In this document: positions 742 through 63,354 of the stretch, piece after piece
Layout of the letters: each line of letters begins with the position of its first letter
How positions within the stretch are numbered: position 1 is the stretch's first letter
Assembly (NCBI RefSeq): GCF_001463885.1
Contig: NZ_BBWQ01000018.1
Span: 310,001 to 374,000, forward strand
DNA length: 64,000 nt
Direction: 5' to 3'
DNA from: Aureimonas altamirensis
GTDB lineage: Bacteria > Pseudomonadota > Alphaproteobacteria > Rhizobiales > Rhizobiaceae
Notes under the pieces: generated by a model
Databases searched by the model: none
What the model was told of the DNA's origin: nothing
Seen by the model: only the letters and a program-made list of their open reading frames with translations
Translations under genes and position numbers: made by a program

Positions 742-809
742 TTCGTGGGGGTGAATGCGGCCGGGCAAGCTATTCTAACCTCGATTTCGAGTGGAATGGA
801 GACGACGCT

Positions 810-4192: not shown

Positions 4193-4203
4193 AGACTTTC
4201 AAA
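4191..4203. promoter_or_regulatory. Second copy of AAAGACTTTCAAA, before the NCS2 permease
   Basis: The 13 bases are identical to 729-741. Here the copy overlaps the deaminase stop codon and lies about 145 bases before the permease start. Exact repetition of 13 bases upstream of two purine genes is unlikely by chance and suggests a regulator site. No binding protein can be assigned from the sequence. Confidence 0.4.
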
Positions 4204-4345
4204 CCGACTGACGGAAATGCGCGAGCGGAACCCAGAGTAGGCTCGCTGTGATCGGCCCTGCCCCAGATAACAACAAAACGGGGGCATGGCCGAGATGCGC
4301 CGCATGGCGCATCATGATCAGGACAAACAGGGAGGACCGTTCCTG

Positions 4346-7893: not shown

Positions 7894-7894
7894 G

Positions 7895-10218
<2,324 letters not shown>

Positions 10219-10222
<4 letters not shown>

Positions 10223-11700: not shown

Positions 11701-11771
11701 TCGGCTTCCTCCCTTGCGTTGCGGTGAGACTAAGTCCGAGCGCCCCCTTGCCGACAGGCATCGTTTCGATG

Positions 11772-11796
11772 AAGACTTTATAGATCGCGTAGATAA
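11772..11796. promoter_or_regulatory. Candidate LysR operator between xdhA and lysR
   Basis: Within the 130-bp divergent intergenic region, TTAT and ATAA form a perfect inverted repeat separated by 11 bases (11778-11796), a LysR-type box geometry. It overlaps AAGACTTTA (11772-11780), which resembles the longer repeat at 729-741 and 4191-4203. LysR regulators usually bind between their own gene and the divergent target, so this is a reasonable operator candidate, but it is unproven. Confidence 0.35.
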
Positions 11797-11830
11797 TCGC
11801 GGTTCTCCCATCATCAGGGTCGGACATCGC

Positions 11831-12751
11831 ATGACGCATATCGACAGCCTGAGGCTTTTCATCCGTGTCGTCGAACTGGGCAGCATCACCGCCGGCGGGC
11901 GCGATGTGCGCATGACGCCGGCCGTCGCTTCCAACCGCATCCGCGCGCTGGAGCAGGCGCTGGGCATCCAGCTATTCAACCGCACGACGCGCAAGCTGAA
12001 GCCGACGGAGGCGGCACAGCTCTACTACGAACATGCGCGGCGCATCGTCGATGCCGTCGAGGAGGCCGACGCCCAGATGGCCGGCTATGCCGGACGCCCG
12101 CGCGGAACCATCCGCGTGGCTGCGCCGCTTGTGGCCGGCAAGACAATCGTCGGGCCGATCATTCCGGCTTTCGCCGACGCCTACCCCGACATCGAGCTGC
12201 GGGTACGGCTGACCGACCGGACCATCGACGTCTTCGACGACAGTCTCGACCTTGTCTTCTTTCTGGGGGAACTGCACGATTCCGGCCTGAGCTGGGCGCA
12301 TATCGCGGATTGCGACCGCGTCATCTGCGCCGCCCCTTCTTACCTTGCACGCCACGGCACGCCGGAACGGCCCGAAGACCTTGCCGCACACAACTGCCTG
12401 CTGCTGCGCTATCCGCGCTCCTCGGAATATTACTGGGTGCTGACCGGTGCGGACGGACCGCAGAAGATGCTGGTCAAGGGCAGCTTCGACGCCGACGACA
12501 GCGGCCTGCTCCTGGAATGGGCGCTGGCCGGAGCCGGCATCGTCAACCGGCCGCGCTTCGAGGTGGCCGCCGATCTGGCGGCAGGCAGGCTCGTGGAACT
12601 GCTGTCCGGGCACGCGCCGCCGCCGGCGCGATTTGGCCTGTTGTACCCCCATAGCCGCATGCGCAATCCGAAGTTGAAGGTTTTTGTGGACTTCGCGGTG
12701 CGTGAAGCAAAGAAAGCCCACCAGCGATTGTTGTCAGTCGAGGCGGCATGA
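11831..12751 (+). CDS. LysR-type regulator of the purine genes (predicted)
   Basis: The 306-residue protein has an N-terminal winged helix (about residues 1-60, with ASNRIRALEQALGIQLFNRTTRK) and a LysR substrate-binding domain from about residue 90. Starting at 11831 gives the normal family length. It is divergent from xdhA and precedes an AzgA purine permease gene, so control of purine uptake and oxidation is likely (inference). Its C-terminal domain resembles the truncated LysR at 3-278, so the purine island is bracketed by two paralogous regulators. The ligand may be a purine or urate, but nothing in the sequence fixes this. Confidence 0.88.
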   Translation: MTHIDSLRLFIRVVELGSITAGGRDVRMTPAVASNRIRALEQALGIQLFNRTTRKLKPTEAAQLYYEHARRIVDAVEEADAQMAGYAGRPRGTIRVAAPLVAGKTIVGPIIPAFADAYPDIELRVRLTDRTIDVFDDSLDLVFFLGELHDSGLSWAHIADCDRVICAAPSYLARHGTPERPEDLAAHNCLLLRYPRSSEYYWVLTGADGPQKMLVKGSFDADDSGLLLEWALAGAGIVNRPRFEVAADLAAGRLVELLSGHAPPPARFGLLYPHSRMRNPKLKVFVDFAVREAKKAHQRLLSVEAA

Positions 12752-12762
12752 TTTTCAATCAT
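12748..12762. promoter_or_regulatory. Perfect palindrome at the lysR stop, before the AzgA gene
   Basis: ATGATT-TTC-AATCAT is a 6-3-6 inverted repeat that begins in the last codons of the LysR gene and lies about 100 bases upstream of the permease start. It contains the T-N11-A spacing of LysR boxes. It could be an operator for the purine permease or part of a transcript end; no T-tract follows. Confidence 0.35.
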
Positions 12763-12860
12763 CTGTAGAAACTGAGTCCGCGAGTTCTGGTTAATCGCCT
12801 TGCCGCGATCTCCGTATTCTGGCCCGCATGAGCGGGATTGAACCCGACACCCCGGGAGGA

Positions 12861-14165
12861 ATGATGGCAGGGAAATGGTTCGACCTCGAGGCATTGGGTA
12901 CCAATGTCCGTACCGAGGTAATCGCCGGTGTCACCACGTTTTTGACGATGGCGTACATCATCTTCGTAAACCCCGAAATCCTGGCGACGACAGGCATGGA
13001 CCACGGGGCGGTCTTCGTGGCCACGTGCCTTGCCGCCGCGCTCGGCTCGGCCATCATGGGCCTGTGGGCGAACTGGCCGGTAGCCATGGCGCCCGGCATG
13101 GGCCTCAACGCCTTCTTCGCCTTCACCGTCGTCGCCGGCCTCGGCTTCACATGGCAGCAGGCGCTGGGTGCGGTCTTCATCTCCGGCCTCATCTTCCTGT
13201 TCCTGTCGGTAACCGGCATCCGCCGATGGCTGATCGCCGGCATACCGGCGTCGATGCGCAGCGCCATCGCCGCCGGCATCGGCCTGTTTCTGGCCATCAT
13301 CGCGCTCAAGAGCGCCGGCATCGTCGTCGCCAGCCCGGCCACGCTGATTACCCTCGGCGATCTGACCGCCAGCACGACGCTTCTGGCCATATTCGGCTTC
13401 TTCCTGATCGCGGCTCTGGATGCGCTGCGCGTCAAGGGCGCGATCCTGATCGGCATCATCGTGGTTACGCTGGCGGCGATGGTGACCGGTGACACCACCT
13501 TCTCCGGCATCGTCGACCTGCCGCCATCCCTGGCGCCGACCTTCCTGCAACTGGATATCTGGGGCGCCCTTGGCTTCGGCATCATCCATGTCGTGCTGGT
13601 GATGGTGCTTGTGGAGGTGTTCGACGCCACCGGCACGCTGATCGGCGTTGCCAAGCGCGCCGGCCTGCTGAAGGAAGGGCCCACCCACCAGAACCCGAAC
13701 CTCAGCCGCGCCCTGATGGCGGATTCGACGGCCATCCTGGCCGGCTCGGTGCTCGGAACATCGTCCACGACGGCCTATGTCGAAAGTGCATCGGGCGTGC
13801 AGGCCGGCGGCCGCTCGGGCCTGACGGCCCTCACCGTCGCCGTCCTGTTCCTGCTGGCGATGTTCTTCTCGCCACTGGCGGCGGCCGTTCCCGCTGCGGC
13901 GACGGCGCCGGCATTGCTGTTCGTGGCCACGCTGATGATGCGCGAGCTGGTCGAGGTGGAATGGGAAGACGTCACCACCGCCGCGCCCGCGGCGCTGACG
14001 GCCCTGGCCATGCCCTTCACCTATTCGATCGCCAACGGCCTCGCCTTCGGCTTCATCTCCTATGCGGTGTTGAAGCTGGTTACGGGTCGCGGCCGAGAAG
14101 TGCATCCCGCAACCTGGATCATCGCGGCGCTCTTTGCCATCAAGTTCGCCTTCTTCGGCGAATGA
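12861..14165 (+). CDS. AzgA-type purine (hypoxanthine/guanine/adenine) permease
   Basis: This multi-pass membrane protein of 434 residues belongs to the AzgA branch of purine permeases. The signatures are seen in order: GTNVRTEVIAGVTTFLTMAYIIFVNP, ATCLAAALGSAIMGL, MAPGMGLNAFFAFTVV, and the late ALMADSTAILAGSVLGTSSTTAYVESASGV loop. It imports oxopurines or adenine by proton symport (family knowledge). The start at 12861 (or the adjacent ATG at 12864) sits close behind GGGAGGA; an ATG at 12828 would add 11 residues but lacks a ribosome site. It follows the LysR gene on the same strand and provides a second purine uptake route beside the NCS2 carrier. Confidence 0.9.
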   Translation: MMAGKWFDLEALGTNVRTEVIAGVTTFLTMAYIIFVNPEILATTGMDHGAVFVATCLAAALGSAIMGLWANWPVAMAPGMGLNAFFAFTVVAGLGFTWQQALGAVFISGLIFLFLSVTGIRRWLIAGIPASMRSAIAAGIGLFLAIIALKSAGIVVASPATLITLGDLTASTTLLAIFGFFLIAALDALRVKGAILIGIIVVTLAAMVTGDTTFSGIVDLPPSLAPTFLQLDIWGALGFGIIHVVLVMVLVEVFDATGTLIGVAKRAGLLKEGPTHQNPNLSRALMADSTAILAGSVLGTSSTTAYVESASGVQAGGRSGLTALTVAVLFLLAMFFSPLAAAVPAAATAPALLFVATLMMRELVEVEWEDVTTAAPAALTALAMPFTYSIANGLAFGFISYAVLKLVTGRGREVHPATWIIAALFAIKFAFFGE

Positions 14166-14172
14166 CGCTTAC

Positions 14173-14201
14173 GGCCGGCAGTCCAATTCGGGCTGCCGGC
14201 C
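14173..14201 (+). terminator. Hairpin after the AzgA permease gene
   Basis: GGCCGGCAG and CTGCCGGCC form a perfect 9-bp stem with an 11-base loop, starting seven bases after the permease stop. No T-tract follows, so it may be a Rho-independent-like or mRNA-end hairpin only. Confidence 0.4.
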
Positions 14202-14264
14202 CCTCCTCCCCCGAACGGCCGCACGCTCTATCTTCGCGATGTACACCGTCGGGGCTTTAACTTC

Positions 14265-49382: not shown

Positions 49383-49504
49383 TATCCCGTCTCCCCGGCT
49401 CTTTTTTACTCGCGTCCAATATCCTGACTATTTGCCTCTTGTTTAAGCTGTGGCGCCGCATTAGGAGAGTTGCCGTTTCCGCCGTTGCGAACTGGAGCGA
49501 TCCC

Positions 49505-50515
49505 TTGCCGAGACTGAGTGTTGTGGTGCCGGTTACCCTGGCGACGATTGTCTTCTGTGCGCCCGCGAGCGCCGAGCCGACCAAGTACCCGCTGACGATC
49601 GAGAACTGCGGGCGGGAGATCACATTCGACAAGGCGCCCGAGCGCACCGTCGCTCTCGGCCAGAACAGCGCCGAGGTGCTGTATCTGCTTGGCCTGGAAG
49701 ACCGCATGGTCGGCACGGCCTTTTGGCCGAACCGCGTCCTGCCCTCTCTCAAAGAGGCCGACGACAAGGTGGAAACACTGTCGGTGGAGTTCCCTTCGAT
49801 GGAATCGGTGCTTGCCAAGGAGCCCGATTTCGTGACCGCCATGCTGGTGACGCTGATGGGGCCCGACAGCAAGGTTGCCAAGCGCGATGACTTCGAGGCG
49901 CTCGGCATTCCGACCTACCTTTCGCCCAGCGCCTGCACGGTGGAAGAGGACGCCAAGGACGTATACGGCCGGCGCGCCGAGCTTTGGAACATGGATCTTC
50001 TCTACAAGGAGATCGAGGACATGGCGAAGATCTTCGACGTCGCCGATCGCGGCGAAGAGGTCGTAGCCGATTTCAAGGCCCGGGAAGCCGCCCTTCGCAG
50101 CGAGTTCGCCAAGCGCGAGGATCTGACCTTCCTGTTCTGGTTCTCCAGCCCCTCCACCGCCGACGACGCATACCTTGCCGGCGGCAACGGGCCTTCGGCC
50201 TACATCGCCGACATTCTGGGTGGTTCCAACGCGGTCACCACCACCAGCGAATGGCCGACGCTCGGCTGGGAGGGCATCATCGCCGCCGATCCCACCGTCA
50301 TCGTCGCAACCCAGGTGGACCGCAAGCGCTGGGCGCTTGACGAGGCCGACGCCAAGATCGCCTATCTGACCACCGACCCGACCGTGAGCCAGATGCGTGC
50401 CGTGCGCGACGGCCATATCTTCACCATGAGCGGCGCGGCCACCAATGCCAGCATCCAGACGCTCTACGGCGCCGAGCAGTTGGCCGAGCAACTTCGGACC
50501 AGCGACCTGAAGTGA
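49505..50515 (+). CDS. BtuF/FecB-type ABC substrate-binding protein
   Basis: This class III periplasmic receptor carries an N-terminal signal (SVVVPVTLATIVFCAPASAE) and a two-lobe Peripla_BP_2 domain (APERTVALGQNSAEVLYLLGLEDRMVG; GWEGIIAADPTVIVATQ). Such proteins bind ferric siderophores, haem or cobalamin. Features such as IENCGREITFDKAPER and PTYLSPSAC are like the group sometimes annotated as F420-0 or iron importers, so the ligand is open. I prefer the TTG at 49505, behind GGAGCG; a TTG at 49439 would place 22 more residues before the signal. It begins a three-gene importer operon. Confidence 0.85.
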   Translation: MPRLSVVVPVTLATIVFCAPASAEPTKYPLTIENCGREITFDKAPERTVALGQNSAEVLYLLGLEDRMVGTAFWPNRVLPSLKEADDKVETLSVEFPSMESVLAKEPDFVTAMLVTLMGPDSKVAKRDDFEALGIPTYLSPSACTVEEDAKDVYGRRAELWNMDLLYKEIEDMAKIFDVADRGEEVVADFKAREAALRSEFAKREDLTFLFWFSSPSTADDAYLAGGNGPSAYIADILGGSNAVTTTSEWPTLGWEGIIAADPTVIVATQVDRKRWALDEADAKIAYLTTDPTVSQMRAVRDGHIFTMSGAATNASIQTLYGAEQLAEQLRTSDLK

Positions 50516-51555
50516 TGGCCGAGGCGGGACATTCGTGGGAACGGCCGGGGCGCCTCGCGGCGGTTCTTGCCCTTGTTCTCCTGACGCTTGCTTTTGCGAT
50601 CGCGCTTGCAACCGCGATCGGCGATTTCAACATCGGCCTCGGCACGGTGGTTCTTGCCGTCACCAACCGACTGGGGCTGACCGCTGTCGAGATCAGCCGG
50701 TTGCAGGAAAGCGTGGTCTGGAACCTGCGGCTTAGCCGCGCCATCGTGGCCGCGCTGGCCGGCGCGGGGCTGGCGCTCTGCGGCGCCATTCTGCAGGCGC
50801 TTCTGCGCAATCCGCTTGCCGAGCCATTTGTACTGGGTGTCTCGGCCGGTGCCTCTACCGGCGCCGTCTGCGTGATCGTTCTGGGTATCGGGGCCGGCAG
50901 CCTGACCCTCTCGCTGGGCGCCTTCGCGGGCGCATTTGCTGCCTTCGCCCTGGTGGCACTTCTGTCCAATGGGGCAACCAGCGGGCCGAACCATACGATC
51001 CTTGCCGGCGTTGCCACCGCCCAGCTCTTCAATGCGCTGACCTCTTACATCGTCACCACTTCGGGAAATGCGCAGCAGGCGCGCGATGTCATGTTCTGGC
51101 TGCTCGGCAGCTTCGGCGGCGTGCGCTGGCCCGATGTGCAGTTGCTTCTGGCTGTGGTGGCGGTGGGCCTCATTGTCTGCCTCTTGATGGCGCGGGCGCT
51201 CGACGCTTTCACTTTCGGCGACGAGGACGCCGCCTCGCTCGGCGTGCCGGTCGGCCGCATCCGCCTCATCCTGTTTGCCGTAACCGCTCTTGTCACCGCC
51301 ACCATCGTCAGCATGGTGGGCGCCATCGGCTTCGTTGGCCTCGTCGTGCCGCATGCGGCCCGCTACGTTGTGGGGCCGATGCATATGCGCCTTCTTCCGG
51401 CCTGCGCGGCGGTGGGCGCCGTATTCATGGTGCTCGCGGACATCGCCTCGCGTGTCGTCGCAGAGCAGCAGACGGTGCCGATCGGCGTCGTTACGGCCCT
51501 CGTCGGCGTGCCATTCTTCGCCCTTATCCTGTTCCGCTCACGGCCCCAGGCATGA
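50515..51555 (+). CDS. FecCD-family ABC permease
   Basis: The 346-residue membrane protein matches the BtuC/FecCD family, with nine to ten helices. Signature segments are LRLSRAIVAALAGAGLALCGAILQALLRNPLAEPFVLGVSAGAS, GFVGLVVPHAARYVVG and TALVGVPFFALILFR. ATG at 50515 overlaps the receptor stop by one base; a GTG one codon earlier is also possible. It imports the ligand of the preceding receptor. Confidence 0.92.
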   Translation: MAEAGHSWERPGRLAAVLALVLLTLAFAIALATAIGDFNIGLGTVVLAVTNRLGLTAVEISRLQESVVWNLRLSRAIVAALAGAGLALCGAILQALLRNPLAEPFVLGVSAGASTGAVCVIVLGIGAGSLTLSLGAFAGAFAAFALVALLSNGATSGPNHTILAGVATAQLFNALTSYIVTTSGNAQQARDVMFWLLGSFGGVRWPDVQLLLAVVAVGLIVCLLMARALDAFTFGDEDAASLGVPVGRIRLILFAVTALVTATIVSMVGAIGFVGLVVPHAARYVVGPMHMRLLPACAAVGAVFMVLADIASRVVAEQQTVPIGVVTALVGVPFFALILFRSRPQA

Positions 51556-52319
51556 CAACGATCCGTGCGGAAAACCTCGTTTGGGGCGTCGGTCGCAAGA
51601 CCATCGTGCATGGCGTGTCGTTAGACGTCGCGCGCGGCGAGACGGTGGGCCTGATCGGTCCGAACGGATCGGGGAAATCGTCGCTCCTGCGCCTTCTGGC
51701 CGGCCTGAGGGCGCCCCGCTCGGGGCTGGTGGAGCTGGAAGGGCGGAATGTCTCGCGCGTGACACGCCGCGCCCTCGCCCGGCATGTTGCTTTCGTGCAG
51801 CAGAACGCCAGCACTGACACTAATGTCAGCGTGCGCGACGTCGTGAAACTCGGCCGTACGCCGCACCGCTCGGCCCTGTCGGGGTGGTCGCAAACCGACG
51901 AAGCCGCGGTTCAAGGCGCGCTCGCGCGCGTCGAGATGACGGGGCGGCGCGATCAGTCCTGGCAGACGCTGTCCGGCGGCGAGCGCCAGCGCGTGCATAT
52001 CGCGAGGGCCTTGGCGCAGACGCCCTCCATCATGTTTCTGGATGAGCCGACCAACCATCTCGATATCCACCACCAGATCGAAATACTGCGCATGGTGCGC
52101 GATCTCGATCTCACCTCCGTGGTGGCGCTGCACGACCTGAACCTCGCCGCCATGTTCTGCGACCGCATTGCCGTGATGTGCGAGGGGCGGTTGATCGAAT
52201 GCGGCACGCCAGCCCAGGTGCTTACCCGCTCGCTTCTGCGCGAGGTGTTCCGCATCGAGACGGAGATCGGCGAGCCGGACGCCTCCGGCCGGCCCCATAT
52301 CCGCTTTCTGGCGGTGTAA
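51552..52319 (+). CDS. FecE/BtuD-type ABC ATPase
   Basis: The 255-residue ATPase has Walker A in GPNGSGKSSLLRLL, Q-loop in FVQQNAS, signature LSGGERQRVHIARAL, Walker B IMFLDEPTNHLD and the switch His in VVALHDLNLA. It starts four bases before the permease stop (ATGA overlap), completing a BtuCDF/FecBCDE-like importer. No TonB-dependent receptor, biosynthesis gene or cobalamin riboswitch is visible around it. Confidence 0.92.
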   Translation: MTTIRAENLVWGVGRKTIVHGVSLDVARGETVGLIGPNGSGKSSLLRLLAGLRAPRSGLVELEGRNVSRVTRRALARHVAFVQQNASTDTNVSVRDVVKLGRTPHRSALSGWSQTDEAAVQGALARVEMTGRRDQSWQTLSGGERQRVHIARALAQTPSIMFLDEPTNHLDIHHQIEILRMVRDLDLTSVVALHDLNLAAMFCDRIAVMCEGRLIECGTPAQVLTRSLLREVFRIETEIGEPDASGRPHIRFLAV

Positions 52320-52380: not shown

Positions 52381-52713
52381 TCAGTGGCTGATCATCCAGG
52401 GCCGCGCCGAGGGAAATGTCTTGGCTCCGCTTGCCGTATGGACGGCCTTGCCGGATTTCGACTTGGAGCCGCAGCAGCCACAGCCTGCCGGGTGCTGGCC
52501 GGAAGAGCGGGCCGGCTCGTGCCGGCTCCGCTCGTTGGTGGCCATGGCGTTGCGCCGCCGCGAGTCCATGCCTGCCACGAAGGGCGCCGACAGGATCACC
52601 CGCCCGCTGGCCGCGCCGCAGCTTGGACAGGCGGCCGGTTCCGCCGCCCGCGCCATCGGATGAAGCGCGGAAAACGACCCGCAATCGGCGCATTCGTAAT
52701 CGTAGAACGGCAT
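52381..52713 (-). CDS. fmdB: FmdB-type zinc ribbon protein
   Basis: The 110-residue protein begins MPFYDYECADCGSF, with CxxC pairs in CADC and CPSC forming a zinc ribbon, and ends with a second small Cys cluster (CGCCGSK). FmdB of Methylophilus is encoded with formamidase and was proposed to regulate it. The gene follows fmdA after 22 bases and is the last gene of the urt-fmd operon. Whether it binds DNA or assists the enzyme is not known. Confidence 0.88.
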   Translation of the reverse strand: MPFYDYECADCGSFSALHPMARAAEPAACPSCGAASGRVILSAPFVAGMDSRRRNAMATNERSRHEPARSSGQHPAGCGCCGSKSKSGKAVHTASGAKTFPSARPWMISH

Positions 52714-52735: not shown

Positions 52736-53968
52736 TCACAGATCCTGGGCGATCGGCATGTCGACCGAACCGTCCAGGTATTTCTGCGGGCCTGCGGCGC
52801 TGGGGCTGATGTCGAAGTCGAATATCTGGGTCGGCAGCCACAGCGTGGCGCAGCTATTGGGTATGTCGACGACGCCGGATAGATGCCCCTGCACGGGTGC
52901 GACACCCAGGATGGAATGTGCCTGTGCCGGCGAGTAGCCGAACTTGGTGAGGTAGGCGATCGCGTTCAGGCACGCCTGGCGATAGGCCACATTGGCGTCC
53001 AGGTAATGCTGGGTGCCGGCCTCGTCCACCGAGATACCCTCGAAGATAAGATAGTCGTTGTAGTTCGGCGAGATGGGCGACGGCTTGAAGATCGGGTTCT
53101 TGATTCCGTACAGCGCCATGCCATCCTTGATGATGTTGACGCGGATGTGCAGCCACGCGCCGAACATCTCGATGGCCCCGCAAAAGGTGATTTCGCCGTC
53201 TCCCTGGCTGAAATGCATGTCGCCCATCGACAGGCCCGCCCCGTCCACATAGACCGGAAAGAATATCTTGGACCCGCGCGACAGGTCCTTGATATCGCAG
53301 TTGCCGCCATGCTCGCGCGGGGGGACGGTGCGCGCGCCTTCCGCCGCCACGCGGTCGCGGTCGGCGCCGGTGAGCTTGCCCAGATGCGCCGTCGCGGCGA
53401 AGGGCGGGTTGGCCAAAGGCGGCACGCGCCCCGGATCGGTATCGATCAACGCCTGCTCGCGCGTGTTCCACTTGTCCAGAAGGCTCTTGTCCGGCAGCGT
53501 GCCGATCAGCCCGGGATGGATCAACCCGGCAAAGCCGACGCCCGGAACGTGCCGCGAGCGCGTGAACAGGCCCTCGTAGTGCCAGACGGATTTCTGCGCC
53601 AGCGGGAAGTGATCGGTCAGGAAGCCGCCGCCGTTTTTCTTGGAGAAGAAGCCGTTGAAGCCCCATTCGTGGCCCTTCAGCGTACCGGCGTCGAGAATGT
53701 CGACCACCAGCAGGTCGCCCGGTTTGGCGCCTTTAACTCCGATAGGACCCGACAGATAGTGCACCGTCGACAGGTCCACGTCGCGGATATCCTCGGCGCT
53801 GTCATCGTTCTTGATGGCGCCGCCCGTCCAGTCGACCGTCTCCACCAGGAAGTCCGCGCCGGGCTCCACCCAGACGGCGATCGGAATGTCTGGATGCCAG
53901 CGATTGTGCAGCATCTCGTTCTCGGTCGCCGGACGGGACAGGTCGACTGAAATGAGGGTATCAGGCAT
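52736..53968 (-). CDS. fmdA: Formamidase/acetamidase
   Basis: The 410-residue enzyme belongs to the FmdA/AmdA family that hydrolyses formamide and other short amides to the acid and ammonia. Recognisable stretches are WVEPGADFLVETVDWTGGAIKND, PGDLLVVDILD, GVGFAGLIHPGLIGT and HGGNCDIKDLSRGSKI. The gene lies 45 bases after urtE. Co-transcription with a urea/amide ABC importer and fmdB is the known formamide-utilisation layout (fmd genes of methylotrophs), so the importer probably carries short amides, urea or both. Confidence 0.93.
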   Translation of the reverse strand: MPDTLISVDLSRPATENEMLHNRWHPDIPIAVWVEPGADFLVETVDWTGGAIKNDDSAEDIRDVDLSTVHYLSGPIGVKGAKPGDLLVVDILDAGTLKGHEWGFNGFFSKKNGGGFLTDHFPLAQKSVWHYEGLFTRSRHVPGVGFAGLIHPGLIGTLPDKSLLDKWNTREQALIDTDPGRVPPLANPPFAATAHLGKLTGADRDRVAAEGARTVPPREHGGNCDIKDLSRGSKIFFPVYVDGAGLSMGDMHFSQGDGEITFCGAIEMFGAWLHIRVNIIKDGMALYGIKNPIFKPSPISPNYNDYLIFEGISVDEAGTQHYLDANVAYRQACLNAIAYLTKFGYSPAQAHSILGVAPVQGHLSGVVDIPNSCATLWLPTQIFDFDISPSAAGPQKYLDGSVDMPIAQDL

Positions 53969-54013: not shown

Positions 54014-54703
54014 TCATACGGACAGGTAGCGGGTGATCTGCGCCTCATCGACGGACGCCGCCGGCGTATCGTGGACGAGTTCGCCGTTCTCGATGACGAG
54101 CACGCGGTCGGCGATATCGAGGGCGAAAGAGAGGACCTGTTCGGATACGACGATGGCCAGCCCCTTTTCGTCGCGGATCCGGCGCAGGGTGCGCGCCATC
54201 TCGCGGATGATCGAAGGCTGGATGCCCTCCGTCGGCTCGTCGAGCAGCAGCACCTTCGGGCGCGATGCCAGCGCACGGGCGATGGCCAGTTGCTGCTGCT
54301 GCCCGCCCGACAGGTTGCCGCCGCGCCGGCGGCCCATTTCGGACAGAACGGGGAACAACTCATACAGATCGCCAGGCACGTCGCGCTCTCCCGTGACGGT
54401 CAAGCCGGTCTCGATGTTCTCGCGCACCGTCATGGTTGAGAAGATCATCCGGCCCTGCGGCACGTAGCCGAGGCCACTGCGCACGCGGACATGGCTTTTG
54501 GCCGAGGTCACGTCGGCACCGTCTATACCGACACGCCCTTCGCGCGTCGGGATGATGCCCATCAGCGATTTCATGAGCGTCGTCTTGCCCATGCCGTTGC
54601 GGCCCATGATGGCGACGATCTCGCCTGCGCCCACACGGAAATCCAGCCCGTGCAGCACCTCGCTCGATCCGTAGGAAACCCGCAAACCGTTTACGTCCAG
54701 CAT
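54014..54703 (-). CDS. urtE: Urea/amide ABC transporter ATPase UrtE
   Basis: The 229-residue LivF-like ATPase has Walker A MGRNGMGKTTL, signature LSGGQQQQLAIARAL and Walker B VLLLDEPTEGIQP. The GIQPSI motif after Walker B and the N-terminal LDVNGLRVSYGSSEVLHGLD are typical of UrtE. It follows urtD after 27 bases. With UrtD it powers import through the UrtB-UrtC channel. Confidence 0.92.
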   Translation of the reverse strand: MLDVNGLRVSYGSSEVLHGLDFRVGAGEIVAIMGRNGMGKTTLMKSLMGIIPTREGRVGIDGADVTSAKSHVRVRSGLGYVPQGRMIFSTMTVRENIETGLTVTGERDVPGDLYELFPVLSEMGRRRGGNLSGGQQQQLAIARALASRPKVLLLDEPTEGIQPSIIREMARTLRRIRDEKGLAIVVSEQVLSFALDIADRVLVIENGELVHDTPAASVDEAQITRYLSV

Positions 54704-54730: not shown

Positions 54731-55477
54731 TCAATGGCCGAGATAGACGTCCACGACCCTCGGGTCGTTCTTCACATGCTCCATCGTGCCTTCGGACAGG
54801 ACATGACCCTGGTGCAGCACGGTGACGCGGTGGGCGATGTCCTCCACGAATTTCATGTCGTGCTCGATCACGATGACCGAGCGCCCGTCGATGATGCGGT
54901 GCAGAAGCTCGGCGGTGCGCATGCGCTCGGTTACGCTCATGCCGGCCACGGGCTCATCCAGCATCAACAGATCCGGGTCCTGGATCAGCAGCATGCCGAT
55001 CTCCAGCCACTGCTTCTGCCCATGGCTCAACATGTCGGAGCGCCGGTGCAGGTGTTCTTTCAGGAAGACCGTCTCGGCGATCTCCTCGACCCGGTCGCGC
55101 ACCTCGGCATCGCGGCGGAAAGCGAGCGCCCCGAAGACCGACCAGCCGCGCGGGTAGGAAATTTCGAGATTTTCGAAGACGGTCAGGTCTTCGTAGATCG
55201 TCGGGTTCTGGAACTTGCGCCCCACGCCCGCATGGACGATCTGGTACTCCTTCATCTGCGTCAGCTCCTTGTCGCGGAAGCGGATGGAGCCGGACGTCGC
55301 CTTGGTCTTGCCGCAGATCAGGTCGAGCGCCGTGGTCTTGCCCGCCCCGTTGGGGCCGATGATCACGCGGATCTCGTTCTCGTCGACATAGAAGGACAGG
55401 TCGTTGACCGCCTTGAACCCGTCGAAGGACACGGTCAGCGCCTCTACCGAAAGCAGGAAATCGTTGGTCGTCGCCAT
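54731..55477 (-). CDS. urtD: Urea/amide ABC transporter ATPase UrtD
   Basis: The 248-residue LivG-like ATPase has Walker A GPNGAGKTTALD and Walker B LLMLDEPVAGM. The signature loop reads LSHGQKQWLEIGM, the SHGQKQWLEI form that distinguishes UrtD from branched-chain amino-acid ATPases, which read SGGQQ. It follows urtC after 12 bases. Confidence 0.93.
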   Translation of the reverse strand: MATTNDFLLSVEALTVSFDGFKAVNDLSFYVDENEIRVIIGPNGAGKTTALDLICGKTKATSGSIRFRDKELTQMKEYQIVHAGVGRKFQNPTIYEDLTVFENLEISYPRGWSVFGALAFRRDAEVRDRVEEIAETVFLKEHLHRRSDMLSHGQKQWLEIGMLLIQDPDLLMLDEPVAGMSVTERMRTAELLHRIIDGRSVIVIEHDMKFVEDIAHRVTVLHQGHVLSEGTMEHVKNDPRVVDVYLGH

Positions 55478-56631: not shown

Positions 56632-57558
56632 TCAGTTGCGGACCTTGAGGGTGAACAGGCCCTGCGGCCGCACCATCAGGATGGCGACGACGGTGAGCAG
56701 GGTAAGAACCTTGGCCATCGAGCCCGACAGGAAGAACTCCATGGTCGACTGGGCTTGCGAGATGGCGAAAGCGGAAGCGAGCGTGCCGATCAGGCTGGCC
56801 GCACCGCCGAAGACGACGACAAGGAACGTGTCCACGATGTAGAGCTGGCCTGCGCTGGGCCCGGTCGAGCCGATCATGGTGAAGGCGCTGCCGGCAATGC
56901 CGGCAATGCCGCAACCCAGCCCGAAGGTAAGGCGATCGACCTTCTCCGTATCGATGCCGACCGCGCCGGCCATCGGCCGGTTCTGCACCACGGCGCGCAC
57001 CCGTGCCCCGAACCTGGAGCGGTACATGAGCAGCCAGACGGCCAGCGTTATCGTCAGCGTGATCGCCATGACGATAAGGCCGTTGATCGGCACCTCGACC
57101 ATGTCGGTCAACGCCAGCGAGCCCATCATCCAGTCGGGCAGCGTCACGCCCACTTCGCGCGCGCCGAAGATGCTGCGGAAGGCCTGCTGCATGATCAGGG
57201 AGAGGCCCCAGGTGGCCAGAAGCGTATCCAGCGGACGGCGATAGAGAAAGCGGATCAGCCCCCATTCGACCGCCATGCCGGCCGCGCCGCTGACGATGAA
57301 GGCAAGGCCCATCGATATGAAGAATGTGATTGGCATCAACGCCGGGGCATGGGCCTGCGCAAGCGTCGAGACCAGATAGGTCACGTAGGCGCCGAGGATC
57401 ATGAACTCGCCATGCGCCATGTTGATGACGCCCATCTGGCCGAAGATGATGGCCAGCCCCAGCGCCATCAGCACCAGGACGGAGAACAGCGTCAGCCCGG
57501 CGAAGCCCTGCATGGCGAAAATGGAAGAAAGCTCGCTCCAGCTATAGTCGGCGAACAT
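56632..57558 (-). CDS. urtB: Urea/amide ABC transporter permease UrtB
   Basis: The 308-residue LivH-type permease has the segments LALGLAIIFGQMGVINMAHGEFMILGAYVTY, VEWGLIRFLYRRPLDTLLATWGLSLI and GAVGIDTEKVDRLTFGLGCGIAGIAG. The length is that of the short UrtB (without the N-terminal receptor-like extension). A 73-base gap with a strong hairpin separates it from urtA. Confidence 0.93.
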   Translation of the reverse strand: MFADYSWSELSSIFAMQGFAGLTLFSVLVLMALGLAIIFGQMGVINMAHGEFMILGAYVTYLVSTLAQAHAPALMPITFFISMGLAFIVSGAAGMAVEWGLIRFLYRRPLDTLLATWGLSLIMQQAFRSIFGAREVGVTLPDWMMGSLALTDMVEVPINGLIVMAITLTITLAVWLLMYRSRFGARVRAVVQNRPMAGAVGIDTEKVDRLTFGLGCGIAGIAGSAFTMIGSTGPSAGQLYIVDTFLVVVFGGAASLIGTLASAFAISQAQSTMEFFLSGSMAKVLTLLTVVAILMVRPQGLFTLKVRN

Positions 57559-57631: not shown

Positions 57632-58897
57632 TTATTGATAGCCTTCGGGGAAGGGATTGGGCTCCATCAGGTCGGTGGTCTCGTAGACGATGTCGTACTG
57701 CCCGTCGGGCAGCGCATGGCCGATGCGCGTCTTGGACCAGAGATGATGGTTCTCGTGGATCTTCACATAGCCTTCCGGCGCGGTATCCAGTTCGATGCCG
57801 GGGCTGGCGGCCCGCACCTTGTCGATATCGAAGCTGCCGGCCTTTTCCACCGCGGCCTTCCAGAGCCACGGGCCCAGATAGGCGGCCTGCGTCACGTCGC
57901 CCACCACCATGTCGGCGCCATAGGCTTCCTTGAACTTGTCGACGAAGCTCTTGTTGTTCTCGTTGTCGATGCTCTGGAAATATTTCATCGCGGCGTAGGC
58001 GCCGTTGATGTTTTCGCCGCCGATGCCCCGGATTTCGTCTTCCGTCACCGAGATGGTCAGAAGAAGCGGCTTCTCCTTGGTCATGTCGATACCGGCAGCC
58101 TTCAACTGCTTGTAGAAGGCGACGTTGGAGCCGCCGACGACGATGGCATAGATGACATCGGGCTTGCGCAGCTTGATCTTGTTGATCACCGAGTTGAACT
58201 GCGTGTGGCCGAGCGGATAATAATCCTCGCCGACCACTTCGAGCCCCAGCTTTTCGATGTGCTTGCGGGCGATCTTGTTGGACGTGCGCGGCCAGATGTA
58301 ATCCGAGCCCAGCAGATAGAAGGTCTTGGCGCCCTTCTCTTTCGTCACCCAGTCGATGCCTGCCAGGATCTGCTGCGTCGCTTCCTGCCCGGTGTAGATC
58401 ACGTTCGGGCTCTCTTCCAGACCTTCGTAGAAGGTCGGATAATAGAGCATGCCGTTATACTGCTCGAAGACCGGCAGCACGGCCTTGCGGGACGCCGACG
58501 TCCAGCAGCCGAAGACGGCCGCCGTCTTGTCTTCCACCAGAAGCTTGCGCGCCTTCTCGGCAAAGGTCGGCCAGTCCGACGCGCCGTCTTCCTGGATCAC
58601 CTCGATCTTGCGGCCAAGGACGCCTCCGGCGGCGTTGATCTCGTCGATGGCCAGCTTCTCGGCCTGCACCGACCCGGTCTCGCTGATCGCCATGGTGCCC
58701 GACACCGAGTGCAGGATGCCCACCTTGACCGTGTCATCGGTGACGGCAAGCCCGGTCGTGTTCACCTCGGCGGTCGGCGGCCCCGCCGCGAAGGCGACTG
58801 TCGGCAGAGCCGCCATCATGGCCAATGCGGCGGCCCCGAACATCAGGCGTCGCCGTGTGACGGACGGCGAGGCCGTCCCCTTGTTCCGTTCTGTCAT
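57632..58897 (-). CDS. urtA: Urea/amide ABC transporter, substrate-binding protein UrtA
   Basis: The 421-residue receptor starts with a twin-Arg signal (TRRRLMFGAAALAMM, ending VAFAAG), so Tat export is possible. The mature part matches UrtA/AmiC-like receptors: TVKVGILHSVSGTMAISE, IEVIQEDGASDWPTFAEKARKLL, AVFGCWTSASRKAVLPVFE and NGLLYYPTFYEG-like NGMLYYPTFYEGLEESPN. The start at 58897 avoids a longer upstream open frame that overlaps the divergent gene's promoter. It heads the urtABCDE-fmdAB operon. Confidence 0.94.
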   Translation of the reverse strand: MTERNKGTASPSVTRRRLMFGAAALAMMAALPTVAFAAGPPTAEVNTTGLAVTDDTVKVGILHSVSGTMAISETGSVQAEKLAIDEINAAGGVLGRKIEVIQEDGASDWPTFAEKARKLLVEDKTAAVFGCWTSASRKAVLPVFEQYNGMLYYPTFYEGLEESPNVIYTGQEATQQILAGIDWVTKEKGAKTFYLLGSDYIWPRTSNKIARKHIEKLGLEVVGEDYYPLGHTQFNSVINKIKLRKPDVIYAIVVGGSNVAFYKQLKAAGIDMTKEKPLLLTISVTEDEIRGIGGENINGAYAAMKYFQSIDNENNKSFVDKFKEAYGADMVVGDVTQAAYLGPWLWKAAVEKAGSFDIDKVRAASPGIELDTAPEGYVKIHENHHLWSKTRIGHALPDGQYDIVYETTDLMEPNPFPEGYQ

Positions 58898-58999: not shown

Positions 59000-59019
59000 A
59001 ATACGTGAAATCGCGTATT
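59000..59019. promoter_or_regulatory. Palindrome AATACG-N8-CGTATT in the urtA/kinase divergent region
   Basis: AATACG (59000-59005) and CGTATT (59014-59019) form a 6-8-6 inverted repeat about 100 bases upstream of urtA and 130 bases upstream of the kinase gene. Such spacing suits a LuxR-family response regulator dimer; the regulator encoded at 62506 is the natural candidate. Confidence 0.4.
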
Positions 59020-59147: not shown

Positions 59148-62100
59148 ATGACAGCACCCCAGCGCATCGTCCGGAATCGTCGCAGCTACAACCAGTGGGT
59201 TGCGAACGAGATGCTGGAAGATTACGCGCTGCGCTTCACCGCGAAGCGCGGCCGCCGCTGGTCGCCGCTGCAACTTGCCATGACGGCGTGCGGCGGCATT
59301 TCCTTTCTGGCGCTGGAAGCGATCGGCGGCGCGATCACGCTGCATTTCGGCTTCTGGGCCGCCTTGGCCGCCACCCTGACCGTGTCGACGCTGATCTTCT
59401 GCGCCAGCCTGCCGATCACTTATTACGCCGCGCGCTATGGCATCGACATGGACCTTCTGACGCGCGGTGCCGGGTTCGGCTATCTCGGCTCCACCGTCAC
59501 GTCGCTCATCTATGCCTCATTCACCTTCATCTTCTTCGCCGTAGAGGCGGCCATCATGGCCATGGCGCTGGAAATGATGACGGGCCTGCCGCTGTGGGCG
59601 GGCTACATCGTCTGCGCGGTCGCAGTCATCCCCATCGTTGCGCACGGCATGAACATGATCAGCCGGTTCCAGATCGTGACCCAGCCCTTCTGGCTGGTGC
59701 TCAACCTTGCGCCGTTTGTGTTTCTGGCCATCGCGGCGCCGATCGGCCTGGCAGACTGGACGGCCTATTCCGGCACGGTCGCGGCCCATGTCTCGCCTGT
59801 CGCCATGTTCGGCGCGGCATCCGCCATCCTGTTCGCGCTGACGGCGCAGATCGGCGAGCAGGTGGATTATCTCCGCTTCATGCCGGAGAGGGCAAAGGGG
59901 CAGCGCAACATCGGCTGGTGGGTGGCACTCCTGGCGGGCGGTCCCGGCTGGATCGTCATCGGCGCCGCCAAGATCCTTGCCGGCTCCTTCCTTGCGGTCC
60001 TTGCTGTGTCCTACGGCCTTGCCCCGTCGGAGGCCAGGCACCCGACCGAAATGTACCGCGTGGCCTACGCCACCATGTTCGACAATCCGGCCATCGTCAT
60101 TGCCGCCACCGGCATCTTCGTGGTGGTGGCGCAGATGAAGATCAACGTCACCAATGCCTATGCGGGCTCGATCGCCTGGTCGAACTTCTTTTCCCGCCTG
60201 ACGCATCATCACCCCGGACGCGTCGTATGGCTTGTCTTCAACGTCGCCATCGCGCTCCTGCTGATGGAAATGGGGGTGCTCCAGGCGCTGGAGCAGATCC
60301 TCGGCCTCTATGCCATCGTGGCCGTGTCGTGGGTCTTCGCGCTGACGGCGGACCTCGTCGTCAACAAGCCGCTCGGCCTGTCGCCCAAGCCGATCGAGTT
60401 CAAGCGCGCGCATCTCTACGACATCAACCCCGTCGGCTTCGGAGCCATGGGAGCCGGCATCCTGGCTTCGACGCTGGCCTATCTGGGCCTGTTCGGCGCA
60501 ACGCTGGCGGCCCTGCATGTCTATGTCGCGATGGTCACGGCCTTTGCCGTATCCCCGCTCATCGCATGGGCGACGGGCGGGCGCACCTACATCGCACGCG
60601 CGCCCACCAATAGCTGGAACGGCGCGCAATCACTGCGCTGCTGCGTCTGCGAAAACAGCTTCGAGCCCGAGGACATGGCCACCTGCCCGGCCTATTCCGG
60701 CCCCATATGCTCTCTCTGCTGTACACTCGATGCGCGCTGCCGCGACATGTGCAAGACGGACAGCCGCCTGCGTGAGCAGATCGTCTCGTTGCTGCGGGCG
60801 CATTCGCGGCGGCTGGCGGCCTTCGCCGATTCTCCGCGCGGGCACTATCTGGCCGTGTTCGCCACCATGATGACGCTGACGGGCGGCATCCTGGCCCTCA
60901 TCGCCTTTCAGGCCGCACTAGACCGGCCGGAGGAAACCGACGCCATCACCGGCTTTGCCGTCCGCGTCTTCGTTGTCTTCGCCATCGTGGAGGGCATCGT
61001 TTCCTGGCTGTTCGTGCTGGCCCATCACAGCCGGCGCGTCGCACAGGAGGAAACCAGCCGGCAGACCCGGGCGCTGACGCGCGAGATCAAGGCGCATCGG
61101 CAGACGGATATCGAGTTGCAGGCCGCCAAGGAACGTGCCGAGGCCGCCAGCCTGGCCAAGACGCGCTTCCTGTTCGGCATGAGCCACGAATTGCGCACGC
61201 CGTTGAACTCCATTCTCGGCTACGCGCAATTGATGGAGCAAGACACAACGCTGCCGGCCCGCCGCCGCGAAGGCGTCAAGGTGATCCGCCGCAGCGGCGA
61301 GCATCTTGCCGGGCTTATCGACGGCCTTCTGGATATTTCGCGCATCGAGGCCGGCAAGCTGCAGGTCTACCGCGACCCGATTTCGCTGACGGCGCTTCTG
61401 GGCGAGCTGGAAGAGATGTTCCGGATGCAGGCCGGCAATGTCGGACTGGAATTCCTGTTGGTGCGCGAGGGGACGGTGCCCGACCATGTGCGTGGCGACG
61501 AAAAGCGGCTGCGCCAGATCCTGATCAACCTTCTGTCCAACGCCTTCAAGTTCACACGCGAAGGCACGGTGATCCTGCGCGTTCGCTATCGCAGCCAGAC
61601 GGCGGAATTCACCGTCATCGACACCGGTCCCGGCATCCCGGCAGACGATCTGGAGCGTATTTTCGAACCCTTCGAGCGCGGCGACCATGGTGCGCCCGGC
61701 TCGGGCATCGGGCTGACCATCACCAAACTTCTGGTGGGAATTCTTGGTGGCGAGATGAAGGTCGAGAGCCGCCTTGGCGTCGGCAGCAGCTTTACCGTGC
61801 GGCTGATGCTGGCCAGCGATACGGCACCGCGGATGGCCGAAAGCCTGCGGGGGCACCCGACAGGCTATCTCGGCCCACGGCGCACCATCCTTGCCGTCGA
61901 CGACGAGCCGGCGCATCGGCAATTGCTGGAGGACATCCTCCAGCCGCTCGGCTTTACGCTTTTCACCGTGGACAGCGCCGCCGCCGGCCTGCAGATGGCC
62001 GAGCTGACCGAACCCGACCTCTTCATCCTCGACGTCAACATGCCGGGCATGGACGGCTGGGAGTTGTCGAGGCGGCTGCGGATGCAGGGCAACACGGCCA

Positions 62101-62513
62101 AGCTAATCATGCTTTCGGCGGACCGGCGGCCGGCCATCCCGGACGCGCGTCTGTGCGACGACTGGGTATCGAAACCCCTGTCCCTGCAAACGCTTCTGTC
62201 CTCGATCGAACGTCTGCTGCGGCTGGAATGGGTGTGCGAAGCAGCGTTGCCAATGCCGCCCGCTATCCTGAACAGCCCGTTGGAACCATCCGAAATTCCC
62301 GGCCCGCAGGCACGCGCGCAACTTGCGGACGCACTGCGGATCGGCCACGCAAGAGGCGCCCATGTCCAGCTCGATGCCATCGCCCTCGCCCACCCGCGCA
62401 CCGAACGCTTCGTCGCGCAGGTCCGCTCACGCCTCGATCTCTACGATCTCGACGCCTGCCTTGCGCTTGTCGAGGGGGTCGGCGACCTCGGCGCCGGCCG
62501 TGCCGATGCCTAG
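59148..62513 (+). CDS. NCS1 nucleobase permease-hybrid histidine kinase fusion
   Basis: This 1121-residue protein begins with a complete 12-helix NCS1 (purine/cytosine/allantoin permease) domain at about residues 20-480. A Cys-rich linker follows with nine Cys in residues 498-535 (CCVC, CSLCC). Two more helices lie near 565-627. A kinase core follows: His680 in SHELRTPLNS, N-box LSNAFKF, G-box GSGIGLTI. Then come a receiver (phosphoacceptor Asp962 in LDVNMPGMDGW) and a 70-residue helical tail. It is likely a permease-derived sensor reporting uptake or presence of a nucleobase, hydantoin or amide. It is divergent from the urt-fmd operon and overlaps the LuxR regulator gene by eight bases. The start at 59148 fits the NCS1 N-terminus; upstream codons are unconserved. 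Confidence 0.9.
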   Translation: MTAPQRIVRNRRSYNQWVANEMLEDYALRFTAKRGRRWSPLQLAMTACGGISFLALEAIGGAITLHFGFWAALAATLTVSTLIFCASLPITYYAARYGIDMDLLTRGAGFGYLGSTVTSLIYASFTFIFFAVEAAIMAMALEMMTGLPLWAGYIVCAVAVIPIVAHGMNMISRFQIVTQPFWLVLNLAPFVFLAIAAPIGLADWTAYSGTVAAHVSPVAMFGAASAILFALTAQIGEQVDYLRFMPERAKGQRNIGWWVALLAGGPGWIVIGAAKILAGSFLAVLAVSYGLAPSEARHPTEMYRVAYATMFDNPAIVIAATGIFVVVAQMKINVTNAYAGSIAWSNFFSRLTHHHPGRVVWLVFNVAIALLLMEMGVLQALEQILGLYAIVAVSWVFALTADLVVNKPLGLSPKPIEFKRAHLYDINPVGFGAMGAGILASTLAYLGLFGATLAALHVYVAMVTAFAVSPLIAWATGGRTYIARAPTNSWNGAQSLRCCVCENSFEPEDMATCPAYSGPICSLCCTLDARCRDMCKTDSRLREQIVSLLRAHSRRLAAFADSPRGHYLAVFATMMTLTGGILALIAFQAALDRPEETDAITGFAVRVFVVFAIVEGIVSWLFVLAHHSRRVAQEETSRQTRALTREIKAHRQTDIELQAAKERAEAASLAKTRFLFGMSHELRTPLNSILGYAQLMEQDTTLPARRREGVKVIRRSGEHLAGLIDGLLDISRIEAGKLQVYRDPISLTALLGELEEMFRMQAGNVGLEFLLVREGTVPDHVRGDEKRLRQILINLLSNAFKFTREGTVILRVRYRSQTAEFTVIDTGPGIPADDLERIFEPFERGDHGAPGSGIGLTITKLLVGILGGEMKVESRLGVGSSFTVRLMLASDTAPRMAESLRGHPTGYLGPRRTILAVDDEPAHRQLLEDILQPLGFTLFTVDSAAAGLQMAELTEPDLFILDVNMPGMDGWELSRRLRMQGNTAKLIMLSADRRPAIPDARLCDDWVSKPLSLQTLLSSIERLLRLEWVCEAALPMPPAILNSPLEPSEIPGPQARAQLADALRIGHARGAHVQLDAIALAHPRTERFVAQVRSRLDLYDLDACLALVEGVGDLGAGRADA

Positions 62514-63354
62514 CCTGTCGCGCATCGTCGTACTGGTGGTGGACGATTCTCCGGACAGCCTTGCCGTCCTGACCGAAACGCTGGAGCGCGAAGGCGCGGA
62601 CGTTCTGGTGGCGCGGTCCGGCGATGCGGCCCTTGGCATCGTGGCCCGCGTCAAGCCCGACATCGTCCTGCTCGACGCGCTGATGCCGGGCCGTGACGGT
62701 TTCGAGACGTGCCGGGCCCTGAAGGCGGACGAAGGCTCCGCCGGCATCCCGGTCATATTCATGACAGGCCTGGACGAGACGGAGCACATCGTGCGCGCCT
62801 TTTCCGTTGGCGGCGTCGATTACGTGACCAAGCCTTTCGCCGTCGCCGAGGTGATCGCGCGGATCAAGGTCCATGGCCGCAATGCCAGCCGCTCGCGCCT
62901 TGTGCAGCAAGCGCTGGAAACCAGCGGACGCCACCTCGTGGCCACCGATGCGCAAGGCCGGGTCACATGGGTTTCGGCCGAAGCGCGAAACCAGTTGCAG
63001 CCAGGCGCAACGCTGGTCGACGATCCGCACAGCCTTTTGCCGGGTGCAGTCGTCGAGGCGGCGGGGCTGACGCTCAACCATCTCGGCGCATGCGGTCCGT
63101 CGGAATATCTGTTCGAGCTTCTCGAAACCACGCGGGCGATTGCACCCGAAGAGGTGCTCAGGCAGGATTTCGGCCTCACCTCGCGCGAGGCGGAAGTGCT
63201 CATCTGGCTGGTGCGGGGCAAGTCGAACCGCGACATCGCCACCATCCTTAATCTATCACCCCGCACGGTGGACAAGCATCTGGAAGCGGTCTTCCGCAAG
63301 CTCGGCGTCGAAAACCGGACGTCGGCCGTTGCCCTGGCGGTTGCCAAAATGTAG
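62506..63354 (+). CDS. REC-(PAS-like)-LuxR response regulator
   Basis: The 282-residue regulator has a receiver (residues 5-125; acidic pair D13/D14, phosphoacceptor D57, Lys in VTKPFAV). A middle stretch of about 80 residues resembles a small PAS domain (HLVATDAQGRVTWVSAEA). A C-terminal LuxR HTH spans about 217-275 (LTSREAEVLIWLVRGKSNRDIATILNLSPRTVDKHL). The ATG at 62506 lies within the end of the kinase gene, so translation is coupled. It is almost certainly the output partner of the permease-kinase; the divergent urt-fmd promoter is its likely target (inference). Confidence 0.92.
   Translation: MPSLSRIVVLVVDDSPDSLAVLTETLEREGADVLVARSGDAALGIVARVKPDIVLLDALMPGRDGFETCRALKADEGSAGIPVIFMTGLDETEHIVRAFSVGGVDYVTKPFAVAEVIARIKVHGRNASRSRLVQQALETSGRHLVATDAQGRVTWVSAEARNQLQPGATLVDDPHSLLPGAVVEAAGLTLNHLGACGPSEYLFELLETTRAIAPEEVLRQDFGLTSREAEVLIWLVRGKSNRDIATILNLSPRTVDKHLEAVFRKLGVENRTSAVALAVAKM

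Follow-up and report, generated by a model that had tools for sequence, protein, structure and literature searches.

Histidine kinases fused to a transporter have been described in a few bacteria. We report here on a further kind, a sensor kinase encoded together with a LuxR-type response regulator in a stretch of 64,000 nucleotides (nt) of Aureimonas altamirensis DNA (contig NZ_BBWQ01000018.1, positions 310,001 to 374,000; "the window" in the following, with positions counted from its first letter). An initial annotation of this DNA had regarded such fusions as an established principle, and CbrA, CrbS and an ammonium transporter kinase bear this out. Papers are cited by PMC number for what the parts available to us state. 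CbrA/CbrB and CrbS/CrbR, the SLC5-STAC kinases, share with our sensor a LeuT-fold transporter fused to a histidine kinase (PMC13022988), and CrbS/CrbR controls acetate-use genes (PMC13022988, PMC5715377). A Kuenenia fusion likewise joins a transporter for a nitrogen compound, ammonium, to a histidine kinase (PMC5764959). CbrA and CrbS consist of an SLC5 permease and a STAC linker, whereas the sensor described here has a predicted NCS1-type fold, a Cys-rich linker and urea/amide genes as probable targets. The Kuenenia fusion, known as Ks-Amt5, differs in having an Amt transporter for ammonium in place of the NCS1-type permease.

The gene pair itself is already visible in a published gene order. 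In Ectopseudomonas guguanensis G3, the urtABCDE operon III by its locus tags adjoins fmdA and a two-component LuxR pair, and the figure key has a hybrid kinase; the source, as far as available, gives gene order only and notes no permease domain (PMC13296017). Among the open-access matches listed, with subscription papers mostly outside, there was no NCS1-kinase fusion, no NCS1 urea carrier and, judged by title, no bacterial transmembrane urea receptor. To our knowledge, no dedicated transmembrane bacterial urea receptor has been described.

A sensor kinase opposite a urea/formamide operon

The features of the locus are the following.

59148-62513, plus strand: sensor kinase of 1121 amino acids, a transporter-kinase fusion ("transceptor")
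59148-60602, plus strand: permease domain with predicted NCS1 fold (residues 1-485), from the predicted model, Foldseek, the bridging protein L101 and hhalign
60639-60755, plus strand: Cys-rich linker (residues 498-536) with eight invariant Cys (48/48 homologues)
60834-61004, plus strand: a pair of long helices that follows the linker (residues 563-619), a probable transmembrane hairpin by the secondary structure of the model
61155-61355, plus strand: HisKA with the phospho-acceptor His680 (residues 670-736, Pfam PF00512)
61494-61811, plus strand: HATPase_c (residues 783-888, Pfam PF02518)
61887-62207, plus strand: C-terminal receiver with Asp962 (residues 914-1020, Pfam PF00072)
62506-63354, plus strand: partner response regulator of 282 amino acids with a receiver (REC, Asp57) and a LuxR/GerE helix-turn-helix (Pfam)
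59002-59017, no strand assigned: candidate operator palindrome TACGTGAAATCGCGTA, a match to the core pattern about 105 nt upstream of the urtA start
57632-58897, minus strand: urtA, substrate-binding protein (TIGR03407, 560.2 bits, cut-off 492.75)
56632-57558, minus strand: urtB, permease (tblastn, 67% identity to the annotated urtB of the Klebsiella plasmid L154)
55490-56623, minus strand: urtC, permease (tblastn, 66% to urtC of L154)
54731-55477, minus strand: urtD, ATPase (tblastn, 70% to urtD of L154)
54014-54703, minus strand: urtE, ATPase (tblastn, 59% to urtE of L154)
52736-53968, minus strand: fmdA, formamidase (NF045496, 726.1 bits, cut-off 500)
52381-52713, minus strand: fmdB, zinc-ribbon protein (PF09723)

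The regulator gene overlaps the sensor kinase gene by 8 bp (62506 against 62513), and a divergent gap of 250 bp separates the kinase start from the urtA start (58897, minus strand), the first gene of the minus-strand operon urtABCDE-fmdA-fmdB. Both the overlap and the divergent arrangement had been read from the DNA initially, and both are confirmed, the former by the coordinates and the latter by coordinates, the urtA and FmdA models, tblastn and PF09723. With HisKA and His680, HATPase_c, and a receiver with Asp962, the sensor is a hybrid histidine kinase, and its partner, having a receiver and a GerE helix-turn-helix, belongs to the REC-LuxR class. The ATG start of the kinase is backed by the homologues L001, L005 and L008, all of which open with MTAPQRI. 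A scan of a genome collection confirmed 358 stretches, of which the best 80 serve here as homologous loci (L001 to L080); the closest of these are from Aurantimonadaceae, with 93% identity in Aureimonas altamirensis. The window's genome carries urease and a second urtA at other places.

We consider it very probable that this sensor system controls the urt/fmd (or urt/urease) operon. The sensor would have arisen from a stand-alone NCS1-related permease for urea or short amides that was fused through the Cys linker to a hybrid histidine kinase. Once the permease site holds urea or a small carboxamide such as formamide, a conformational change would be passed on by the linker to the kinase, phosphate would then leave His680 and reach Asp57 of the LuxR regulator encoded by the overlapping gene, with Asp962 as a relay or a moderator, and a dimer of this regulator would bind TACG-N8-CGTA and switch urtABCDE-fmdAB on, rather than repress it. 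As a whole, from permease ligand to operon switch-on, we regard this course of events as likely; the data show the architecture, the predicted fold, the gene order, and the conservation and co-occurrence of the palindrome, from which the remaining steps are deduced. The occurrence of sensor, regulator and a shared control site beside urea/amide genes in many bacteria suggests that these nitrogen sources are sensed directly.

Distribution and gene neighbours

Clustering placed a regulator of this family in 76 of the 80 loci, and tblastn gave a match in 79, the exception being L034, which stops at the contig end. After exclusion of L011 and L038, 78 loci were placed in a tree and labelled by what the stretch fetched contained: fmd in 17, urease in 29, urtA only in 8, and none of these in 24. 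Some urt gene (>120 bits) was present in all 17 fmd loci and in 25 of the 29 urease loci. The two excluded loci, both on metagenome-derived contigs, have a kinase frame split in two, by sequencing error or decay.

A separate draw from the window's order covered 199 genomes; 48 had a match to the sensor, 45 of them a strong one. The initial annotation had proposed that the permease-shaped kinase and its LuxR regulator govern urea/amide import, and had looked to a tabulation of neighbours as the test, with homologues mostly away from urt/fmd genes speaking against the link; in the draw, urtA over the cut-off lay within 5 kb of the sensor in 41/45 sensor-bearing genomes, and every genome with FmdA over the cut-off (23/23, among the 45) carried the sensor family, so that gene order backs the proposal. 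Two FmdA genomes, G150 and G198, carry the non-hybrid sensor variant only. This variant keeps the permease and the Cys linker (L106, 2409-5045; L108, 3499-6156; by similarity also L107, 2773-5466); fmdA lies near it in all three loci, and an OmpR-type regulator gene as well in L107 and L108.

The sensor is also found on plasmids, where 338 of 507 matching records are from Klebsiella. On the Klebsiella conjugative plasmid L154, the region 3909-14234 contains urtABCDE, a formamidase, the sensor, and the regulator, which is detected by tblastn and does not appear in the gene list; the operator core is at 9879, and the formamidase showed no likeness to FmdA by tblastn. Judging from its gene set, we infer that this cluster is the one published for Klebsiella ST307 plasmids as a "urea transport system" (UrtABC/AmiF), which likewise combines urt genes with a formamidase (PMC13060141, PMC5506382). 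These papers name the transporter and the formamidase, and the term "histidine kinase" is absent from their main texts (PMC13060141, PMC5506382). The sensor system names a likely regulator for the urea/formamide cluster of many enterobacterial plasmids. Sinorhizobium meliloti 1021, a laboratory strain, also carries sensor, regulator, urtABCDE and operator core on pSymB, with the kinase gene at NC_003078.1 1622168-1625467.

A candidate operator between urtA and the kinase

Of the 39 divergent gaps between urtA and the kinase gene, 33 contain the core pattern TACG-N8-CGTA, with the window included and near copies (L002/L003) remaining among the 39. Every other spacer length from 4 to 14 gave 0/39 gaps, and 500 shuffles gave a mean of 0.16 and a maximum of 2. 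After removal of six duplicates or near copies, the core was found upstream of urtA in 59 of 74 genes. It also stands upstream of other genes of urea and amide use, namely fmdA (3 of 20 fmdA genes, in L018, L113 and L116), aliphatic amidase (L018, at 14310, 154 nt; L162, at 9533, 141 nt), formamidase (L162, at 982, 95 nt upstream) and ureA (L062).

Stricter forms of the pattern were searched separately. The strict form lay near urtA in 24 of the 45 sensor-bearing genomes of the order draw, versus 0 of 70 genomes that had urtA over the cut-off but no sensor; among sensor-less genomes, 7/154 had it elsewhere. Nineteen sensor-bearing genomes were picked for the absence of urtA or the operator from the fetched stretch, and six of them contained a strict site (reversed control, 4/19). 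In five of these six it was directly upstream of a urtA outside the fetched stretch, either on another contig (L046, L050 and L071) or on the same contig at a distance of about 16 kb (L053) or about 35 kb (L060), and in the sixth, L041, it was about 1.3 kb from urtA.

The window contains two matches to the core, at 59002 and, within urtC, at 55523. The extended pattern ATACG-N8-CGTAT has four sites in the window's genome versus one for the reversed pattern, and the copy in the window is the one at urtA; there was none on the contigs of this genome that carry urease and the second urtA. In an alignment of the leaders of seven Aurantimonadaceae loci, TGC follows just downstream of the operator in 7/7 and TTGC in 6/7, and it may belong to a -35 element. 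The 7-2-7 spacing of the palindrome resembles that of NarL sites.

Fold of the permease domain

Direct sequence searches failed to establish an NCS1 identity. Residues 1-567 of the sensor gave no NCS1 or other transporter family in Pfam/NCBIfam at E<=10, with chance-level matches only, residues 1-500 had no PDB match by sequence, and a profile of 48 homologues had zero matches to PDB chains at E up to 1. A PF02133 match over the cut-off was absent from the window's sensor, from all of the 48 homologues (0/48) and from the window's genome. We therefore turned to the fold, to bridging proteins and to profile comparison. An AlphaFold2 model of the N-terminal domain built from 48 sequences (mean predicted local distance difference test score, pLDDT, 82; predicted template modelling score, pTM, 0.83) had two NCS1 proteins as its top Foldseek matches, CodB (7qoa, E 2e-8) and Mhp1 (2jln, E 4e-8). 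SLC5 carriers and plant DUR3-type urea carriers ranked below these with the predicted model, and the sensor is thus not an SLC5 symporter by this measure. Pfam scans of the sensor gave no match to a STAC linker, for which Pfam is not confirmed to contain a model.

The bridging protein, L101 (identical to L114), is a stand-alone distant relative that aligned with 25% identity over 458 columns (E 4e-15 versus one locus, 4.5e-8 at genome level) and reached PF02133 with 29.1 bits (cut-off 23.5). A profile-profile comparison (hhalign) with six canonical NCS1 proteins gave 98.1% probability and E 7.6e-14 over 310 columns. Taken together, the model and these comparisons make it almost certain that the permease domain has an NCS1-type fold. 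Of the one-chain architecture proposed initially, the permease, Cys linker, kinase and receiver all stand, whereas the "entire NCS1 nucleobase permease" has no direct database match; with the family model not reached and the stacking Trp of transmembrane helix (TM) 3 replaced, we class the domain as an NCS1-related branch and not as a nucleobase permease.

Stand-alone relatives without a kinase

Relatives lacking the kinase, with 38-48% identity, also exist. A search with the kinase led to a Moraxella gene of 548 codons (L155) that stops inside the linker region; its neighbours are fmdAB. Past 7557 on this record, a frame opens like the N-terminus of an aliphatic amidase and is cut short ahead of an insertion element, and no trace of a kinase was seen there. 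Further stand-alone genes were found from the Moraxella gene, and nine of the first 18 records in the list were examined, eight of which carry annotation. In seven of these eight annotated plasmid records, urease, formamidase or amidase genes lie near the permease. Two Acinetobacter permeases with the same protein accession are near urease, a Klebsiella permease directly follows ureG (on a record that contains rpoD and dnaG and is therefore probably chromosomal DNA), fmdA is two genes off in Tsukamurella, and the Arthrobacter permease (L161) is near an aliphatic amidase. On a Methylovirgula plasmid (L162, 1257-7590), sensor, regulator and a separate stand-alone permease adjoin each other, with formamidase and amidase nearby.

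Some of these relatives bear the annotation allantoin or cytosine permease. Judging by their neighbours, L157, L158, L160, L161 and L163 (L157 and L163 share one protein accession), annotated in this way or as hypothetical, are probably misnamed urea/amide carriers, and such names of database entries would be corrected if this is true. The next nearest permease, L112 (7949-12984; PF02133, 36.4 bits), a distant NCS1 protein, adjoins genes for a carbon-nitrogen hydrolase, an AmiC-like binding protein and an AmiR-like ANTAR protein, and L114 (2296-10727), the distant NCS1 permease introduced above as L101, has a Cys tail and lies beside hydantoinase A/B-like and AmiR/AmiC-like genes.

Conserved residues of the permease site

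Residue numbers of CodB and Mhp1 were transferred to the sensor through an alignment with L102, and 12 sensors, eight stand-alone permeases and six canonical NCS1 proteins were compared. The comparison with the substrate sites of known carriers, proposed initially, gave a divided result. The sensor shares the predicted fold with CodB and Mhp1, as well as TM6 Asp240/Arg243, present in 6/6 canonical rows, and TM8 Asn333/Asn336, present in 5/6. In CodB, TM3 Trp108 stacks on the ring and is called conserved in the NCS1 family (PMC9379551). At this position (129), the sensors have Phe or Leu in 12/12 cases versus Trp in 6/6 canonical proteins; Gln121 of Mhp1 is likewise replaced, by Glu133, and neither carrier has an attached kinase. 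Glu133, Gln234, Glu237 and Gln238 are found in all 12 sensors and all eight stand-alone permeases but in none of the six canonical proteins. Unlike CodB with its TM8 Na2-site hydroxyls Thr278 and Thr279, the sensor has Lys331 and Ile332, both invariant in 48 sensors; as both hydroxyls are missing from most canonical rows too, this TM8 feature does not define the NCS1 family. For the TM6 stacking residue (CodB Phe204), two alignments place the sensor equivalent differently.

Thr126, Phe129, Glu133, Gln234, Glu237, Gln238 and Lys331 are sensor-like in 8/8 stand-alone permeases. That most pocket residues are common to sensors and permeases would fit a fusion that still transports and whose kinase reads the flux or a downstream signal such as ammonium or nitrogen status instead of occupancy by urea or amide, and CbrA, a similar fusion, has been studied as both carrier and kinase (PMC7096432, PMC13022988). 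Glu57 in TM1, however, is present in 48/48 sensors and replaced in the eight stand-alone permeases, by Phe in seven and Gln in one, which hints at altered transport in the sensors, and we hold a flux-reading kinase to be unlikely. Being invariant in the sensors and absent from the stand-alone permeases, Glu57 may help to turn a carrier into a receptor.

The eight Cys of the linker (498, 501, 513, 521, 524, 525, 531 and 535) are identical in all of the aligned homologues and, from this pattern, probably form a metal site. Four of the eight stand-alone permeases keep four of them, one keeps five and two keep one, and the Methylovirgula permease has all eight, yet Gln at position 57. Such invariant Cys, present in part or in full without a kinase, could also mean that the permease is an anchor only and that the linker senses zinc or the redox state. 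As the permease pocket residues are invariant as well, and the permease-linker unit is retained with the non-hybrid kinase (L106 and L108; L107 by similarity), we consider this quite improbable. That the linker serves as a coupling element between permease and kinase, as the transceptor mechanism would require, is possible, though we hold it only tentatively.

Observations that weigh against control by the sensor

Several findings count against a general link of the sensor with urt/fmd genes through one operator. The core is missing upstream of 15 of 74 urtA genes, and the strict form is missing near urtA in 21 of the 45 sensor-bearing genomes of the order draw, from 13 of the 19 chosen genomes, and from the 5 Azospirillum genomes searched. 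Genome-wide, it occurs in 33/199 genomes versus 26/199 for the reversed control, which is barely above the control, so that the signal lies in its position alone. The window's genome itself has no strict form near urtA, and its copy fits the looser core only: with three mismatches to the strict form it was missed by the strict search, which at up to two mismatches gave a single chance-level match in the window, away from urtA. The 24 of 78 loci without urtA, fmdA or a urease gene in the stretch fetched include 10 from Azospirillum, and seven of the 24 stretches are shorter than 15 kb. Sensor-bearing Azospirillum and Saccharospirillum genomes without nearby urt genes or strict operator fall outside the proposed scheme; the neighbours of the Azospirillum sensors gave no lead on another target. 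Moreover, the genomes behind all these counts are related and not independent, so that P values calculated from them come out too small and carry no weight here, the substrates of the stand-alone permeases follow from their neighbours only, and the Streptomyces record has no urease, formamidase or amidase genes near its permease.

Ligand and the purine island

The argument for the ligand is mainly one of gene neighbours, with the stand-alone permeases as the strongest clue. The neighbouring enzymes, formamidase, aliphatic amidase and urease, have as their common chemistry a small carboxamide or urea, and urea or a short amide is thus probably what the permease domain binds. Pseudomonas veronii grows on formamide, and Urt beside a formamidase has been suggested to serve formamide uptake in this species (PMC13209695). 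The NCS1 metformin transporter MetT shows that the substrates of NCS1 proteins can include an acyclic nitrogen compound; in contrast to the sensor, MetT is a transporter only, and its docking pocket is rich in aromatics (PMC13390362).

The initial ligand list had contained an amide, which stands together with urea, and also a purine breakdown product (hydantoin, allantoin) and uracil, which the enzymes nearby and the TM3 Phe/Leu do not favour. Sensing of a nucleobase, hydantoin or allantoin, which would tie purine breakdown to urea/amide use, is suggested by the NCS1 fold, by the hydantoinase-like and AmiC/AmiR-like genes beside L101/L114, by the allantoin and cytosine annotations of stand-alone relatives, and by a purine island within the window:

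576-14165: purine island with an allantoinase/OHCU decarboxylase fusion, ureidoglycine aminohydrolase, an NCS2 permease, guanine deaminase and xanthine dehydrogenase

The operator core had no match in this island (about 0.5-14 kb of the window), the closer stand-alone relatives lie near urease, formamidase or amidase, and the stacking Trp of TM3 is replaced in every sensor compared. We therefore consider a nucleobase-type ligand very unlikely. The link of the sensor to the purine island, also proposed initially, was dropped, as the operator matches in the window are confined to the two sites at urtA and in urtC.

With urea or a short amide as the preferred ligand, a broader view can be formulated, for which we see the chances as evenly balanced: urea and short amides would be the substrates of an unrecognised NCS1-related branch found in Proteobacteria and Actinobacteria, and this branch would be the source of a fused direct urea/amide receptor kinase, with Glu57 and the completed set of eight Cys as candidate changes and with one conserved operator that accompanies the genes for Urt, Fmd, amidase and urease. 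Closely related carriers and receptors, set apart by a few conserved sites, would offer a route to how transporters become receptors. Urea is a major nitrogen source, and the sensor, its partner and the operator make the sensing of urea and amides testable.

Apart from the sensor locus, the region 49439-52319 contains genes for a Peripla_BP_2 binding protein, a permease-like protein and an ABC ATPase, heading towards fmdB and of an iron- or cobalamin-type uptake system.

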